This document shows, piece by piece, positions 34,723-41,875 of a DNA stretch of 45,514 nt. How positions within the stretch are numbered: the stretch's first letter is position 1; each line of letters opens with the position of its first letter. This DNA comes from Gracilibacter sp. BRH_c7a (GTDB lineage Bacteria > Bacillota > Desulfitobacteriia > Desulfitobacteriales > Syntrophobotulaceae). The notes beneath the pieces are model-generated. The model did not search any database, was not told the origin of the DNA, and worked only from the letters and a program-made list of their open reading frames with translations. The DNA lies in assembly GCA_001516055.1 (NCBI GenBank), contig LOEZ01000097.1:1-45514 (forward strand), given 5' to 3'. A program made the position numbers and the translations under genes.

Positions 34723-34770
34723 AGCTGTCTCCGAAAGCATTGAAAAGCTTACGAAGGCAGCTGTTTTTTT
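34723..34770 (+). terminator. Terminator of the nfeD-floA operon
   Basis: A 16-position stem, AGCTGTCT...AAAGC (34723-34738) with GCTT...GGCAGCT (34747-34762), has two mismatches and is followed by TTTTTTT at 34764-34770. The stop codon of the converging sigma-54 activator lies in its U-tract; the hairpin may serve both strands. Confidence 0.85.
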
Positions 34771-36493
34771 ATGTATTATCTAAATCATACGTTTCTAACT
34801 TGCGATAAAGGGTTGGACGAGAAATTCCTAGAATTTTTGCTGCTTTACTGATGTTGTTATCGCATTGAGTCATAGTTTTTTTAATGCTCTCTATCTCTAA
34901 TTCTTGGATCATTCTCTGTTTTAGGTTTAACATATGGATATAAGAATCTTCGTTGCCAGGTTTTATATCTGGTTTTAATATTTCGTCAGGAAGGTTACGT
35001 AAACAAATGTTTCTATCAGCTAGAGTAACGGCCCACAGCATATAGTTTTTTAGTTCCCTGATATTTCCGGGCCAATCGTGACATAAAAGGCACTCTATAA
35101 CATCTGGTTCCATCTCAAGTAGCGGGATGTTCAATTGGTCACAACTTTGTTTTATATAAAATTGGGCTAAGTCGATAATATCTCTCCCTCTATTTCTTAG
35201 CGGGGGGATTTGAAGTTTCAGTGCCGCTAAACGAAAATACAAATCTTCACGGAATTCTTTGCGCTTAACCATCTCATAGAGATCCTTGTTAGTAGCTGAG
35301 ATAATTCTGAAGTTTGTGGGTAAATATTTATTGCCGCCTACCCTCATTACTTTCCTGTCATCAATTACCCTCAATAACACAGGTTGTAACGACAAAGGCA
35401 TATCTCCGATTTCGTCCAAGAAAAGAGTACCACCGTTAGCCATTTCCATTTTACCCATACGGCCTTTCCGTTCTGCTCCAGAAAAGCTGCCACCCTCGTA
35501 ACCGAACAATTCACTTTCTATTAAGTTTTCTGGAATAGCTGCACAGTTAATAGCGACAAAAGGACCAGGAGAACAGCATTCGTTGTGGATAGCATGAGCA
35601 AAAAGTTCTTTTCCTGTCCCACTTTCTCCTGCTAAAAGAATATCTCCTGGACTGTGTGCTATTTTATAAGCAATTTCTTTAGCTTTTAACATGGATGGAC
35701 TATTACCAATAATGTCTTGAAATGAATAAACTGCTTCTAACCCATCACCTATTTTCACCCTGTTATTTGGGTCAAGAACATATTGCTTAGGACGATTATT
35801 ATGAATAGCTTGCTGTATCTTTTCAGCCGTAGAAAACTGCCAGGTAACTAAGAAGGATAAAAGCTGTTTTTCTTCTTCAGTGTACTGTAATTTTTGAAAA
35901 TAAGGAGCGACGAAAAATCCTGCTACCCTACCTGCTAGATCATGAAACGGAATAGAGACAATGAATTTACTGAAACGCAACACTTCATTGTATACTTCTG
36001 ATCCGAATAAATAGGCGGGTTTATTCTGGGCGAGACTGATAGATACAGCTGAAGTGCCAATTTTATCTTCAGAAAAATCTAACCCTGGCTGTATTTGCTT
36101 TAGAGGAAAATTATGTACAGATAGAAGGATAGCATTACGATCTACAAGCCCAATTCCGAAAGAATTCATTCTGGAAAAATCTGAGGCTACTTCTCTCAAA
36201 ATAGGCTGGGTTGTTTGGAGCAAGGTCCTATTATCTCTAAGTACTTTATCAAATAAATAAGGTTGTAATAGCGTTTTACTGGATATCTCCCTCTGAGGGA
36301 AGATACCTTTATTCTTAGAGCGAGCCCAGGATTCAGCGATTTCATTGCGTACAATAGGTAACCCACGGGAATCTTCATTATAATCCAAAAAGTCAGACCG
36401 CTTCTGGTCTATTAGCGGCCACTGATTAAACCAAGAATCTAACGAAGATAAGATTTCGTTGAGTTGGCTTGATTTGGTATTATCTAGAGTCAT
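34769..36493 (-). CDS. Sigma-54-dependent activator, AcoR/GAF type
   Basis: 574 residues. A GAF-type sensor region (about 40-225, with SFGIGLVDRNAI and GTSAVSISLAQNKPAYLFGSE) precedes the AAA+ domain: Walker A GESGTGKE (289-296), sigma-54 contact loop GSFSGA (335-340, where GAFTGA is usual), and Walker B GGTLFLDEIGDMP. A Fis-type helix-turn-helix closes the protein (NISKAAKILGISRPTLYRKL). ATG 36493 is preceded by GGGAGGG; an in-frame upstream start lacks a site. It is divergent from the torD-molybdoenzyme operon, which has a sigma-54 promoter and palindromic sites in between, so it is almost certainly that operon's activator. The signal it senses is unknown. Confidence 0.93.
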   Translation of the reverse strand: MTLDNTKSSQLNEILSSLDSWFNQWPLIDQKRSDFLDYNEDSRGLPIVRNEIAESWARSKNKGIFPQREISSKTLLQPYLFDKVLRDNRTLLQTTQPILREVASDFSRMNSFGIGLVDRNAILLSVHNFPLKQIQPGLDFSEDKIGTSAVSISLAQNKPAYLFGSEVYNEVLRFSKFIVSIPFHDLAGRVAGFFVAPYFQKLQYTEEEKQLLSFLVTWQFSTAEKIQQAIHNNRPKQYVLDPNNRVKIGDGLEAVYSFQDIIGNSPSMLKAKEIAYKIAHSPGDILLAGESGTGKELFAHAIHNECCSPGPFVAINCAAIPENLIESELFGYEGGSFSGAERKGRMGKMEMANGGTLFLDEIGDMPLSLQPVLLRVIDDRKVMRVGGNKYLPTNFRIISATNKDLYEMVKRKEFREDLYFRLAALKLQIPPLRNRGRDIIDLAQFYIKQSCDQLNIPLLEMEPDVIECLLCHDWPGNIRELKNYMLWAVTLADRNICLRNLPDEILKPDIKPGNEDSYIHMLNLKQRMIQELEIESIKKTMTQCDNNISKAAKILGISRPTLYRKLETYDLDNT

Positions 36494-36604
36494 AAGCGAC
36501 CCTCCCATGTCAACCATTTAGTTAATTATATCACAAGGAATTTAATTAGGTACAGGTATATTTGGATGCTAAATATTTATATGAGGACAATTTTAATGTC
36601 ATAG

Positions 36605-36652
36605 TGTAAAGATGGTTTACAGTACTGTAATGATGACATTACGATATTTACA
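36605..36652. promoter_or_regulatory. Clustered palindromes, likely activator upstream sites
   Basis: Three overlapping inverted repeats: TGTAAA-N5-TTTACA (36605-36621), the exact palindrome TTACAGTACTGTAA (36617-36630), and GTAATG-N4-CATTAC (36627-36642). One more TTTACA half-site lies at 36647-36652. They lie 100-145 nt before the -24 box at 36751, the usual distance for enhancer sites of sigma-54 activators. The 334-nt intergenic region otherwise holds only the sigma-54 promoter and AT-rich sequence. Confidence 0.7.
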
Positions 36653-36750
36653 AGGTAACAAAAATAGCTTAAAGGCAAAGCTATAGGATTACCATGATTC
36701 TATCTGGGGATTATCGGTGTTCTTCTTGGAGTTAGTTTGTACAATCAGAC

Positions 36751-36766
36751 TGGCATGAAAATTGCT
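36751..36766 (+). promoter_or_regulatory. Sigma-54 (-24/-12) promoter
   Basis: TGGCATGAAAATTGCT matches the TGGCAC-N5-TTGCW consensus with one change. GG (36752-36753) and GC (36764-36765) are separated by exactly ten nt, as required. The expected transcription start is near 36777, about 80 nt before torD. Confidence 0.88.
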
Positions 36767-36857
36767 TTATATTTGTAATAAATGATATTCAGAAAATAAA
36801 GGGGTGAGAACGGTTTTTTGATTTTTAATGGTAGAGAAAGGAGGGAGAAATATAATC

Positions 36858-37592
36858 TTGATTACTAAACAAAAAGATTTTTCAGCTAGTCAAACTCAGA
36901 TATCTTGCGAATTAGCCCAGGCACGCCTTGTCGTTTATCAGTTATTGAGTTCTGGGTATTGTCAGAGCCCTGATATTGATACGGTTAGAAAGCTACTCTC
37001 CAATCAGATGATTAATTTAATGATGCATTTATCAACGAAGAAACAGACAAATAATCAAGTTTCAGAGGGTCTTAAATTAATTAACGAGTTTGTCCAGCAA
37101 TCTTTAAAGCTAGAGCTAAACGAAGTCCAAACATTACTAGCAGTAGAGTATACCAAGCTATTAAGAGGACTTAAGCCAGGCTACGGCCCTCAGCCACCTT
37201 ATGAATCTATTTATCGCAGTATCAATAAGCAACCTTCTCAAAAAATTCTTAGAGAAATACGCAGCTTTTATACTCAGTTAGGTGTGTCACTGACCTTAAA
37301 AGACCAGCCGGATTTTATTGGCTTAGAGTTTGATCTTATGCGTTATCTAATCGAAAAAGAAGTTGAGGCTTGGGAGAAAAACCAAGTAGATGAAGCTGTA
37401 AGAAGCCTTCAAACACAATGGGAATTCTTAAATAAGCATCTTGCTTGTTGGGTTCCTGAATTTTGCAAGATTATGTATGACCATACTTGTGAAAAATATT
37501 ATAAAGGATTAGCCTTGATAACTATTGGTTATATAGCTGATGACCTTCTGCAACTGAAGAATGAATTGGAATCAGCAAAGTTTAGTTTTTGA
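36858..37592 (+). CDS. TorD/DmsD-like molybdoenzyme chaperone
   Basis: 244 residues, all-helical TorD family (redox enzyme maturation protein). These bind the TAT signal peptide of the partner and help molybdenum cofactor insertion. Segments seen are LLAVEYTKLLRG, YGPQPPYESIYR, LKDQPDFIGLEFDLMRYLIE and WEFLNKHLACWVPEF. It directly precedes the TAT-tagged catalytic subunit (18 nt). An AAAGGAGGG at 36837-36845 points to TTG 36858. The in-frame ATG 36828 lies upstream of that site and has none of its own. Confidence 0.88.
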   Translation: MITKQKDFSASQTQISCELAQARLVVYQLLSSGYCQSPDIDTVRKLLSNQMINLMMHLSTKKQTNNQVSEGLKLINEFVQQSLKLELNEVQTLLAVEYTKLLRGLKPGYGPQPPYESIYRSINKQPSQKILREIRSFYTQLGVSLTLKDQPDFIGLEFDLMRYLIEKEVEAWEKNQVDEAVRSLQTQWEFLNKHLACWVPEFCKIMYDHTCEKYYKGLALITIGYIADDLLQLKNELESAKFSF

Positions 37593-37610
37593 TAAGGAGG
37601 GAAACAAGAC

Positions 37611-40313
37611 ATGTCACGAAATATCAGTAGAAGATCCATGATTAAAGGTTCTGTGGCAACCGTCACATTAGCGGCTTTTGGTGCTAACTTCTTTGATGGT
37701 CCCAAACATATTGTGAAAGCAAGTGCTGTAAATCCTAGCACTATTCCAGATGAGACAGTATACAGTATGTGTCGCCAATGCGTTCTGCCAGCATGTGGTA
37801 TCAAACTAGACGTAAAAGATGGAGTGGCTGTAAACATTGAGGGTAATCCGGAGGCTCCGAGTAATAACGGTGCTCTTTGTTCCAGGGGGAACGCAACCTT
37901 AGCAAGTGTTTATAACCCTTATCGGGTCAAGAAACCTCTTAAGAGAACAAATCCTAAAAAGGGTATAGATGAAGATCCCGGTTGGGAAGAAATCTCCTGG
38001 GAAGAGGCTTTAGGGACAATCGCCGAAGAGTTGAAGAGAGTGCGTGCAGATGATCCCAGAAAATTTGTTTGGAATAATGGTTTTGCACGCTCTGGAAGCA
38101 TGCTGGAAGGGATGGAATTCTGTGAAGCGTTCGGTACTCCGAACTATGTTGAAGTCGATGGGCCCACATGTTCTGTTCATTTTGGGTGTTCACTGCTCAT
38201 GGGAAATTTCACAGGACCGTCTTATGATGCCGGTTATACAAAATATTTTATAGCTGTTGGTGAAGGCTCGAATGCAACATGTGGTTATGCACCTAACACC
38301 CAAGGTTTTGCTGACGCAGTTGCCAATGGGATGAAAGTAGTGTGTATCGACCCCAAATGTAATGTAGAGGCTTCTAAAGGGGAATGGATTCCAATCAGAC
38401 CTGGTACAGACCTTGCTTTCGTTTTGGCCATGCAGCATGTAATTGTTCATGAACTCAAACGTTTTGATGTTGAATTCATTAAAAGACGTACCAATGCACC
38501 TTACTTAGTAGGACCAGATGGCCACTACGTACGCGATAAGGATACAGATAAACCTTTGGTCTGGGATGAGATAGCAAATGCTGCTAAAACTTTTGATGAT
38601 AAAACAGTTGCAGATTATGCGTTGAACGGTAAGTTTGATGTCAATGGAGTGGAATGTCAACCTGGTTTCCAGATATATGTCAGTTCTATCGTTGATTACA
38701 CTCCTGAGTGGGCTGAAGAAAAAACGACTATTAAGGCAGATACTATCAGAAGAATTGCCCGTGAGTTTGTAGAAAATGCTCAGATTGGAAGTACCATCAC
38801 AATTAATGGAACTGTGTTTCCTTACCGTCCAGTTTGTTTTGAAGTAGGCAGAGGTGCGGTTACTCAATTCTATGGAGGTAACTTCCATTGTTCCAGCATT
38901 ATAGTTAACATGCTTGTTGGTGCCTTGGATGTACCAGGTGGCGGAATTGGAGCTTTAGGCCCCAATCACAAATGTACTCCGGTACCTTTAGCACTCAAGC
39001 CTGATAAAGATGGGATTGTAGCACCTAAAGTAGAAGCTGTACCGCGAGAATTTGAATGGCCGCCTAATAGATTAGACGCAAAAACATTCTTTCCTTATTC
39101 TCATGATAACCCTCATATCGTATTTGATGCCATCCTTGATCCTGAAAAATACTATTTGGATTATACACCAGAGGTTATGCTGGTTTGGGGAGGCAACGCA
39201 GTAGTGCGTTTATATCAACCAGAAAAAGTACTGGAGGCTATGCAGAAGCTGAAATTTATCTTTGCAATTTCTTATTCCTTAGATGAACCAACTCAAATGG
39301 CTGATATCGTACTACCGGAAGCAGTAGGTCTTGAGAGATGGTCGGCAGCTACCCGGCCGGGAATGGTCAATACTCCCAATGGTACGATGAAAGCCATTTT
39401 CTCTATGGCTGCTCAACAGGTAATCGATAGAGTCTATGACTCCAGACAACCTGATGAAATCTTCGTGGATCTTGCTGAAAGAGTCGGAATCCTCTACGGA
39501 AAAGGCGGAGTAAATGATCTTTTGAATACTGGAAGATTCGCGCCCGTTCCGTTCACAGGGGCATTTCAGTTAGACCTGAATACCAAATATACAGCAAAAG
39601 AACTTGCCAACCGTGTATTGAAGTCTGCCCGAGGCGGAGAGGTCGATATCGATAAGATGCGTCATGAAGCGAAATTACCTGCCCAGCTGTTGCCGGAAAA
39701 AGCTAACTATCCTTCTTTGGCTTGGCCGGTTGGAACAACCAGATATGCATTATACCTTGAGAACTTACTTTTCAAAGGAGAAGATTTAAAGACAAACCTA
39801 GAACGGGTTAAAGCCCAAGTTCCTGGTTGGGAGATGGATAATCTTATGGAGCATTATCAACCAGTTGTTAGATGGATGGAAAAGAAAAGGCAAATTCCAA
39901 GTGAATATGACATGTATGCTATAAACTGGAAAACAGCTCAATACTCCTTTGGCAATGGTGGTTCGGCAGAAAATCCATGGTTGGATGAAGTAGCTCAATT
40001 GGATCCCCATCTCCATGTTATCTGTATGAATAGATCTACCGGGGAAGAGAGAGGATTCAAAGATGGAGATACAGTATGGGTGGAATCTTTTGAAGGGGGT
40101 TCCAAGTTCGAAGGCCGATTAAAGCTCTCTGAAGCTTTTCACCATGAAGTCGTGGGTATTGCCGGTCTATTCGGTCATACCAGTAAACAAATGAACCCGA
40201 TAGCCCGCAAAGGATTGCATTTCAATAAGGTGATGGCCAATGGTCCTGGAGACATTGATCCCATCGGTGGTGGTTTTGATGGATCCCATAAAGTAAAAGT
40301 ATATAAAGCCTAA
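37611..40313 (+). CDS. TAT-exported molybdopterin oxidoreductase, catalytic subunit
   Basis: 900 residues, DMSO-reductase superfamily. The N-terminus has a twin-arginine signal (SRRSMIKGS, Arg7-Arg8) and a hydrophobic stretch. A [4Fe-4S] motif CX2CX4CX27C uses Cys54, 57, 62 and 90. Cys187 in GPTCSVHFG is the probable molybdenum ligand, which points to polysulfide/thiosulfate/arsenate-type reductases rather than serine-ligand DMSO reductases. The C-terminal domain has MNRSTGEERGFKDGDTVW. With the ferredoxin and DmsC-like subunits it would form a quinol-linked complex on the outer face of the membrane. The substrate cannot be named from sequence. Confidence 0.93.
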   Translation: MSRNISRRSMIKGSVATVTLAAFGANFFDGPKHIVKASAVNPSTIPDETVYSMCRQCVLPACGIKLDVKDGVAVNIEGNPEAPSNNGALCSRGNATLASVYNPYRVKKPLKRTNPKKGIDEDPGWEEISWEEALGTIAEELKRVRADDPRKFVWNNGFARSGSMLEGMEFCEAFGTPNYVEVDGPTCSVHFGCSLLMGNFTGPSYDAGYTKYFIAVGEGSNATCGYAPNTQGFADAVANGMKVVCIDPKCNVEASKGEWIPIRPGTDLAFVLAMQHVIVHELKRFDVEFIKRRTNAPYLVGPDGHYVRDKDTDKPLVWDEIANAAKTFDDKTVADYALNGKFDVNGVECQPGFQIYVSSIVDYTPEWAEEKTTIKADTIRRIAREFVENAQIGSTITINGTVFPYRPVCFEVGRGAVTQFYGGNFHCSSIIVNMLVGALDVPGGGIGALGPNHKCTPVPLALKPDKDGIVAPKVEAVPREFEWPPNRLDAKTFFPYSHDNPHIVFDAILDPEKYYLDYTPEVMLVWGGNAVVRLYQPEKVLEAMQKLKFIFAISYSLDEPTQMADIVLPEAVGLERWSAATRPGMVNTPNGTMKAIFSMAAQQVIDRVYDSRQPDEIFVDLAERVGILYGKGGVNDLLNTGRFAPVPFTGAFQLDLNTKYTAKELANRVLKSARGGEVDIDKMRHEAKLPAQLLPEKANYPSLAWPVGTTRYALYLENLLFKGEDLKTNLERVKAQVPGWEMDNLMEHYQPVVRWMEKKRQIPSEYDMYAINWKTAQYSFGNGGSAENPWLDEVAQLDPHLHVICMNRSTGEERGFKDGDTVWVESFEGGSKFEGRLKLSEAFHHEVVGIAGLFGHTSKQMNPIARKGLHFNKVMANGPGDIDPIGGGFDGSHKVKVYKA

Positions 40314-40330
40314 CGAAAGGAGGAGATAAA

Positions 40331-40933
40331 ATGAGATATGGAATGGTAATAGATTTAAGAAGATGTGTAGGTTGTAACAGTTGTTCTGTAGCATGTAAGC
40401 AGACGAATGCAACACCTGCAGGGGTACTCCGGACCAAAGTTCAAATTGATGAAGAGGGCAAATATCCAAATACTCGTTTGAGTTTTACACCTTTTCTGTG
40501 TATGCACTGTGAGAATCCTGAGTGTGCAAGAGTTTGCCCAACCGGCGCAACCCAAAAACTTGATAATGGTATTGTAACTATAGATAAGGATAAATGTATT
40601 GGATGTCAGTATTGTGTAATGGCCTGCCCCTATTATGCTAGAACTTTTGTTAAGAAAGTTGAGCAGTATTTTCCGGGACAAGAGATTACTGCTTTTGAGG
40701 AGGCTAATTCGACCAGACACCAAGACGGAGTAGTGGATAAATGTGATTTCTGTATTGATCGAATCAATACAGAGAAACAACCTTCCTGCGTAGGCGTTTG
40801 TGCAGCCAAGGCAAGAATTTTTGGCGATTTAGACGATCCTAATAGTGAAGTATCCAAGCTCATAGTCCAAAGAGGAGGGTTCCAATTACTTGAAGCTTTG
40901 GGCTTTAGCCCAGCAGTATATTATATAAGATAA
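40331..40933 (+). CDS. Four-cluster ferredoxin subunit (DmsB/PsrB type)
   Basis: 200 residues. Sixteen cysteines form four [4Fe-4S] motifs: Cys12/15/18/22, Cys57/60/65/69, Cys89/92/95/99 and Cys138/141/153/157. The start GMVIDLRRCVGCNSC is typical of the electron-transfer subunit of molybdoenzyme complexes. There is no signal peptide, so it would be carried across the membrane with the catalytic subunit. It starts 17 nt after that gene and 13 nt before the anchor gene, with GAAAGGAGG before the ATG. Confidence 0.95.
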   Translation: MRYGMVIDLRRCVGCNSCSVACKQTNATPAGVLRTKVQIDEEGKYPNTRLSFTPFLCMHCENPECARVCPTGATQKLDNGIVTIDKDKCIGCQYCVMACPYYARTFVKKVEQYFPGQEITAFEEANSTRHQDGVVDKCDFCIDRINTEKQPSCVGVCAAKARIFGDLDDPNSEVSKLIVQRGGFQLLEALGFSPAVYYIR

Positions 40934-40946
40934 GGAGGAAAACTCA

Positions 40947-41786
40947 ATGGAAATTCAATGGACTTTAGTATTATTTACATTGTTGACCGGTATGGGAGCA
41001 GGAATCTTCGCTTTTGTTTCAGTTGCCGAAATTTTGGGTAAGATGGAAAAAATTCGGCCGACAGGAGCATTATTTGCACTGGGGCTAATTATTGTCGGTG
41101 GCCTAGCAAGTGTTTTCCACTTATCTCATCCGACAAGAGCAATAAATGTATTAGGCAACTTGAATACTGCTTTTGGTAGAGAATTTGTCTTACTGGGGAT
41201 AGTGGTTGTACTAATAGCTTCGTACATCATGGTAATAAAACGCGATGCTTCACCCTCCATAAAGAAAGCTGTTTCTATAGCAGGGCTACTTTCCTCAGTA
41301 ATCTTGGCGTTTGAAATTGGTGCGACTTATGTACTTCCTGCCCAGCCTGCGTGGAACACCTATCTTTTACCTTTAGTTTATCTGGCTTCAGCTGGAGTAC
41401 TAGGAATTTTTGGCATATATGTAATTGTCTCAAGGAAAGAATCTGAACATGAGCAGGAGCAAGGACTTATTGGAGGAATCAACACAATAGCATTAGGTGC
41501 TATTGTTACTCAAGCAGTCTTAGTATTCACCTATATCTCACACTTAGGGACTTCAATGTATACTGACATTTCTGTTCTAACAACTAGTACCGGATTGATG
41601 ATGTTTTGGTTGGGAGTCTTTGCAGTAGGATTATTGATACCATTTATCTTAACTTTGTGGTTTAAGAAGAGTGGAAAAAATGCCTTGAATATTGCTGCTA
41701 TTTCTCTGGCCTGCTCTCTTATTGGAGGTATAGCCTTTAGGGCAATGATGTATACGCTTGGCAGCGGTTATAACTTGAATATTTAG
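40947..41786 (+). CDS. DmsC-like membrane anchor subunit
   Basis: 279 residues, eight hydrophobic helices. It resembles the DMSO reductase anchor DmsC, with the N-terminal WTLVLFTLLTGMGAGIFAF and the loop SVFHLSHPTRAINVLGN ending in GREF (SREI in typical DmsC). The subunit holds the complex in the membrane and passes electrons from menaquinol. No heme-binding pattern is evident. It is the last gene of the operon, which ends in a strong terminator. NrfD/PsrC is the alternative family, but the HLSHP region fits DmsC better. Confidence 0.88.
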   Translation: MEIQWTLVLFTLLTGMGAGIFAFVSVAEILGKMEKIRPTGALFALGLIIVGGLASVFHLSHPTRAINVLGNLNTAFGREFVLLGIVVVLIASYIMVIKRDASPSIKKAVSIAGLLSSVILAFEIGATYVLPAQPAWNTYLLPLVYLASAGVLGIFGIYVIVSRKESEHEQEQGLIGGINTIALGAIVTQAVLVFTYISHLGTSMYTDISVLTTSTGLMMFWLGVFAVGLLIPFILTLWFKKSGKNALNIAAISLACSLIGGIAFRAMMYTLGSGYNLNI

Positions 41787-41833
41787 AAGTTAAATTAAAG
41801 TCGCTCCTTAAGGTAAAATTAAACAAAATGATA

Positions 41834-41875
41834 AAAGATACTGCTTGCATCAATGAGGCGAAGCAGTATCTTTTT
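41834..41875 (+). terminator. Intrinsic terminator of the molybdoenzyme operon
   Basis: AAAGATACTGCTT (41834-41846) and AAGCAGTATCTTT (41861-41873) form a perfect 13-bp stem, followed by T to 41875. Confidence 0.92.

Follow-up and report, generated by a model that had tools for sequence, protein, structure and literature searches.

PadB, of the phenylacetyl-CoA oxidoreductase PadBCD, carries out an alpha-oxidation at the alpha-CH2 of phenylacetyl-CoA (PMC5109826), and the gut corticoid 21-dehydroxylase catalyzes the reductive loss of a hydroxyl group alpha to a ketone (PMC11574389). The catechol dehydroxylases of Eggerthella lenta are TAT-exported complexes that include a ferredoxin and an anchor in the membrane; catechols act as alternative electron acceptors (PMC7028382, PMC11574389). 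Genomes of Desulfitobacterium hafniense encode 53–57 molybdopterin oxidoreductases, few of which have a predictable function (PMC3306737). Here we analyzed a molybdoenzyme module of an anaerobic bacterium in the window, by which we mean the whole 45,514-nt stretch of DNA under study, and found it to be a real, complete and mosaic form of a type of respiratory complex that is already known. What is new is the combination of its parts and a narrowed substrate hypothesis; the pairing of a Cys metal ligand with a DmsC-type anchor, which a preliminary description of this DNA had regarded as an odd mix, is not new, as PadBCD and SoeABC show the same pairing.

The module consists of four structural genes arranged head to tail on the forward strand (36828–41786), with a divergent activator gene before them and an intrinsic terminator after them (41836–41875, forward strand; 11-bp perfect stem plus a T run; fold −20.2 kcal/mol, z −5.3). 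The first gene encodes a TorD-family chaperone (36828–37592, forward strand, 254 aa as called; PF02613, 1.1e-21), and the second encodes the catalytic Mo/W-bisPGD subunit (37611–40313, forward strand, 900 aa; Pfam Molybdopterin, Fe4S4 and Molydop_binding), which bears the TAT motif SRRSMIK at residues 6–12 and Fe4S4 cysteines starting at residue 54. These are followed by a four-cluster ferredoxin subunit (40331–40933, forward strand, 200 aa; identified by Pfam) with exactly 16 Cys, and by an anchor of the NrfD/DmsC superfamily (40947–41786, forward strand, 279 aa) with eight predicted TM segments. A bisPGD subunit with Fe4S4, a four-cluster ferredoxin and an anchor of this superfamily identify a complex iron-sulfur molybdoenzyme of the DMSO reductase superfamily, while an AAA+ activator, a −24/−12 promoter and the RpoN (sigma-54) encoded in the genome identify a sigma-54-activated operon. 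The preliminary description had proposed a complete, separately controlled respiratory unit with a divergent activator, palindromic sites, a near-perfect −24/−12 promoter, a TorD chaperone, a TAT-exported catalytic subunit with a probable Cys ligand and a 16-Cys ferredoxin; the parts, promoter, activator and terminator bear this out, except that the activator gene lies outside the span 36605–41875 given for the unit. No substrate-linked gene was found in the operon or adjoining it. As to the start of TorD, a Shine-Dalgarno-like AAAGGAGGG lies after the called start, and the real start may be a TTG at 36858.

The activator (34769–36517, reverse strand, 582 aa) comprises an N-terminal sensor region of ~250 aa, an AAA+ domain and a Fis-type HTH (Pfam PF00158, Sigma54_activat, 5e-63; PF25601; PF02954). 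It had been described as a GAF activator; the Sigma54_activat match and the Fis HTH uphold a sigma-54 activator, whereas the GAF domain found no Pfam match in the sensor region even at E ≤ 1. Searching the PDB with the sensor region returned nothing useful; another sigma-54 activator has an N-terminus homologous to this one (31%). The spacer between activator and operon is 310 bp long and holds a −24/−12 site and three overlapping dyads. The site, TGGCATGAAAATTGCT (36751–36766, forward strand), is the sole match to TGGCAY-N5-TTGCW on both strands of the 45.5 kb (0.12 expected), and it has one mismatch to TGGCACG-N4-TTGCW. The dyads (36605–36642), 110–145 bp upstream of the −24 element, are TGTAAA-N5-TTTACA (36605–36621), TTACAGTACTGTAA (36617–36630) and GTAATG-N4-CATTAC (36627–36642). 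Six perfect dyads with 6-bp arms occur in the spacer against 1.5 expected, a count reached in 13 of 500 shuffles; this enrichment is moderate, suggestive rather than overwhelming, and the region 36605–36642 is probably where the activator binds.

When the catalytic subunit was aligned with reference enzymes, Cys187 fell at the metal-ligand position, where it pairs with the Cys of PhsA, an ArrA-like protein, SoeA and PadB and with the Ser of DmsA; this position is Cys in 103 of 107 aligned sequences. Such a ligand would suit an enzyme that, like Psr, Phs or Arr, reduces an inorganic terminal acceptor, for example polysulfide, thiosulfate, Fe(III) or an oxyanion of arsenic or selenium, and structure comparison points the same way. 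An AlphaFold2 model of the subunit (pLDDT 85.3) matched PsrA (Z 30.7, 673 aligned, rmsd 2.7) and ArrA (Z 30.6, 702 aligned, rmsd 3.0) in a tie, so that among solved structures polysulfide and arsenate reductases come nearest, no closer enzyme having been solved. Also in line with an inorganic acceptor, a D. hafniense operon for a Mo-oxidoreductase, which includes polysulfide-reductase-type as well as TorD-like genes, is ~40-fold up with Fe(III) (PMC3306737). However, although PhsA and ArrA were the top NCBIfam profiles, the subunit reached no NCBIfam cut-off and stayed far under those two (PhsA, 227 against 694; ArrA, 151 against 1600), with QrcB at 139 against 440 and TtrA at 40 against 1750. 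Furthermore, PhsA and the ArrA-like protein lie outside the family to which the subunit belongs, both known members of that family act on carbon, and the genome already has an ArrA-like protein and a PhsA that passes the cut-off. Reduction of an inorganic acceptor is thus an unlikely function, if one that deserves a place among the candidates. Membership of Phs, Arr, Ttr, Qrc or Dms is ruled out by the NCBIfam cut-offs together with the tree described below. Elsewhere in the window's genome (G000:C19:116435–117157), a Mo-enzyme match with one in-frame TGA may encode a selenocysteine-containing formate dehydrogenase.

The two known family members, PadB and Elen_2453, were placed by operon context or gene order, not by accession. 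The PadB reference comes from a genome (G169) whose PadI gene scores 832 bits against an NCBIfam cut-off of 700; upstream of that gene lie POR-type and pyridine-nucleotide oxidoreductase genes, and downstream lie a catalytic homologue (E 8e-139), a ferredoxin gene, an 8-TM-type anchor (Pfam DmsC) and fdhD. In a second padI-bearing genome (G120), no padB adjoined padI. The Elen_2451–2454 cluster encodes FdhD, a ferredoxin, a Mo-oxidoreductase and an SPFH/Band 7 protein (PMC11835702), and an Eggerthella locus (L178 3841–9323, genome G036) carries FdhD, Fer4, Molybdopterin and Band_7 in the same order; we matched its Mo subunit by this gene order to the corticoid 21-dehydroxylase and refer to it as the Elen_2453 candidate. 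The SoeA reference is from an Azospirillum record that also has xsc and whose anchor carries the annotation DmsC/YnfH, and Dadh was located in Eggerthella genomes with the published dadh primer (PMC7028382), its N-terminus being consistent with the published forward primer ATGGGTAACCTGACCATG. The gene fdhD adjoins both the PadBCD genes (L177 5961–6950) and the 21-dehydroxylase-type cluster (L178 3841–4719), and may indicate that the family's metal centre is sulfurated; there is no fdhD beside the window's operon.

Placement of the catalytic subunit in a tree of Mo enzymes, which the preliminary description had proposed, identified its family. In a 49-row tree, 36 rows formed a family with 100/100 support that includes the window, PadB and the Elen_2453 candidate and leaves out SoeA, PhsA, the ArrA-like protein, Dadh and DmsA; the SoeA pair fell outside at 98/92, Dadh grouped with the protein of another genome, G239, and with L030_2 outside the family node, and a 107-row quick tree agreed. 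The nearest relative of the subunit, at 63% identity, comes from a Chloroflexi MAG, and in the 49-row tree both sit inside a 13-row clade (100/100) of which we know of no characterized member. Identity of the subunit is 35% over 877 residues to PadB and 29% to the Elen_2453 candidate; this low identity to the two known members (29–35%) counts against the organic-acceptor reading proposed below. Nesting of the window and its 63% relative in a characterized clade was rejected both for the Elen_2453 clade (AU p 2.4e-96) and for the PadB clade (AU p 2.6e-4), the latter from 23 rows run without a mixture model, with a long-branch warning that concerned L087 with SoeA and none of the tested rows. 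The preliminary description had held the acceptor to be unpredictable, which stands insofar as neither cut-offs nor nesting fixes the exact substrate, but was too strong, because the family gives a testable chemical direction. No close relative was found by tblastn against plasmids and phages (best, a Sporomusa plasmid at 35%), and no further close homologue among 298 genomes of the 63% relative's class.

In the window's clade, 12 of 14 rows have a TAT motif; so do the Eggerthella rows and an Aquificaceae/Scalindua group, and none of the other PadB-like rows, PadB included, has one. Neighbouring TorD genes accompany TAT-bearing rows only, except on the Sporomusa plasmid, whose operon has TorD and no recognizable motif. 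Among the genes next to relatives that are not exported are those for 2-oxoacid oxidoreductases, xanthine-oxidase-type enzymes, CoA ligases and UbiD, each in small numbers (2–4 of 114 ORFs), and the window's clade forms stand-alone modules whose neighbours are mostly varied regulators and unrelated genes. Since CoA thioesters should be out of reach of an exported enzyme, the TAT motif argues against PadB function. Although the identity to PadB and the shared three-subunit plan might suggest a phenylacetyl-CoA oxidoreductase proper, its nesting in the PadB clade was rejected and the module contains no padEFGHI, 2-oxoacid oxidoreductase or CoA ligase genes, so that we consider this function highly improbable. 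Export bears likewise on the idea of a quinone-reducing dehydrogenase that, like PadBCD or SoeABC, would work oxidatively and pass electrons from an external donor to the quinone pool. PadB, which oxidizes its substrate, belongs to one family with the window, and PadD and SoeC are DmsC-type anchors; however, PadB and SoeA have no TAT motif, whereas the window's subunit has both TAT motif and TorD, no catabolic genes were found with the operon, and the exported Eggerthella relative matched to Elen_2453 works reductively (PMC11574389). An oxidative role therefore strikes us as improbable.

Two further features of the window's clade concern its TorD genes. In one genome (G006:C95; L149 and L151) two operon copies are separated by 23 kb; their catalytic and ferredoxin matches score equally, but their TorD genes and flanks differ. 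In the 63% relative TorD is part of a 358-aa ORF (L150 437–1513) whose first ~140 residues resemble, by eye, a response-regulator receiver domain.

The window's ferredoxin and TorD have their nearest matches in their own clade, unlike the anchor and the activator. The anchor had been described as DmsC rather than NrfD, and this assignment is favoured by seeded HMMs (DmsC/PadD/SoeC-seeded, 79 bits; NrfD-seeded, 50 bits), whereas Pfam ranks NrfD (2e-16) above DmsC (1e-11). Most anchors in the window's clade are NrfD (mostly 10-TM), that of the 63% relative included; 8-TM DmsC-like anchors occur there in the window and in one Actinomycetota row (L025). Among 82 genomes of its class, the window's anchor passed E 1e-18 only in G239 (1.3e-46, 40%), the next anchors in a family-level search reaching ~5e-15. 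The best match of the sensor region in the 82 class genomes was the activator of the G239 operon (3e-29; next 3e-19), which sits ~4 kb from the G239 anchor in the same operon. That operon (L189 3209–10643), from a Desulfitobacterium-like genome, has the same layout as the window's module, with a divergent sigma-54 activator, the site TGGCATGCAATTTGCA, a TAT catalytic subunit, a ferredoxin, an anchor and TorD. Its catalytic subunit aligns to Dadh over the full length (29%, E 2e-89) and groups with it at 100/99, and the anchor of the E. lenta Dadh operon is 25% identical to the window's over 288 aa. By sequence comparison, then, the window's anchor and activator are closest to those of a catechol-dehydroxylase-family operon, a mosaic that was absent from the preliminary description. 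The simplest reading is that anchor and switch were exchanged between Mo-enzyme lineages, and a mosaic of this kind suggests more generally that such lineages swap their anchors and switches.

We propose, with moderate confidence, that the module is switched on by its substrate and uses quinol to reduce an organic terminal acceptor outside the cell, possibly one with a hydroxyl beside a carbonyl. The activator would sense the acceptor or its metabolite, bind the upstream dyads and open the −24/−12 promoter with sigma-54. TorD would keep the catalytic subunit until the cofactor is loaded, after which TAT export would follow. Quinol would be oxidized at the 8-TM anchor, and outside the membrane electrons would travel by way of the four-cluster ferredoxin and then the Fe4S4 cluster to the Cys-ligated Mo/W centre, which would reduce the organic acceptor. 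Family membership, together with the kinship of anchor and activator to those of Dadh-like operons, suggests that an oxygen function is removed from carbon, possibly a hydroxyl beside a carbonyl or on an activated ring; kinship of anchor and regulator does not itself determine the substrate. By analogy with PadB, which works oxidatively, electron flow could be reversed. Because PadB and the 21-dehydroxylase both act at a carbon beside a carbonyl, we also hypothesize that the common reaction of the PadB-like family is the addition or removal of oxygen at such a carbon, and that the window's exported clade respires alpha-hydroxy-carbonyls as terminal acceptors, a conjecture that we offer as speculative and rather doubtful. 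To our knowledge, respiration of alpha-hydroxy-carbonyls has not been described for such environmental bacteria. With an exported clade placed next to PadB and the 21-dehydroxylase, the search for a substrate, otherwise open-ended, can concentrate on one class of carbon compounds that can be tested.

Compared with known systems, the module resembles PadBCD in family (100/100), in the Cys at the ligand position, in the four-cluster ferredoxin and in the 8-TM DmsC-type anchor, but PadB lacks a TAT motif, has its own 100/100 clade and has padI and 2-oxoacid oxidoreductase genes close by, and no TorD was seen adjoining it. With the Elen_2453 candidate the module shares the family, the TAT motif and a ferredoxin partner; that candidate, however, is only 29% identical, falls in a separate 100/100 clade, adjoins fdhD and an SPFH gene, and has GntR-type and NrfD genes upstream where the module has a sigma-54 switch and a DmsC-like anchor. 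SoeABC has the Cys ligand, the ferredoxin and a DmsC-type anchor, yet its catalytic subunit (26%) lies outside the family and no TAT motif was found in it. DmsABC follows the three-subunit plan, with TAT export and an anchor of the 8-TM superfamily, but differs in the Ser ligand that marks DmsABC/YnfEFGH (Cys187 in the module) and in its distant catalytic subunit (22%). The catalytic subunits of Dadh and G239 are of another lineage, outside the PadB-like family, whereas their complexes resemble the module in TAT export, ferredoxin and a related 8-TM anchor (25% for the Dadh operon, 37–40% for G239), and the G239 operon has in common with it the divergent sigma-54 activator, the promoter and TorD.
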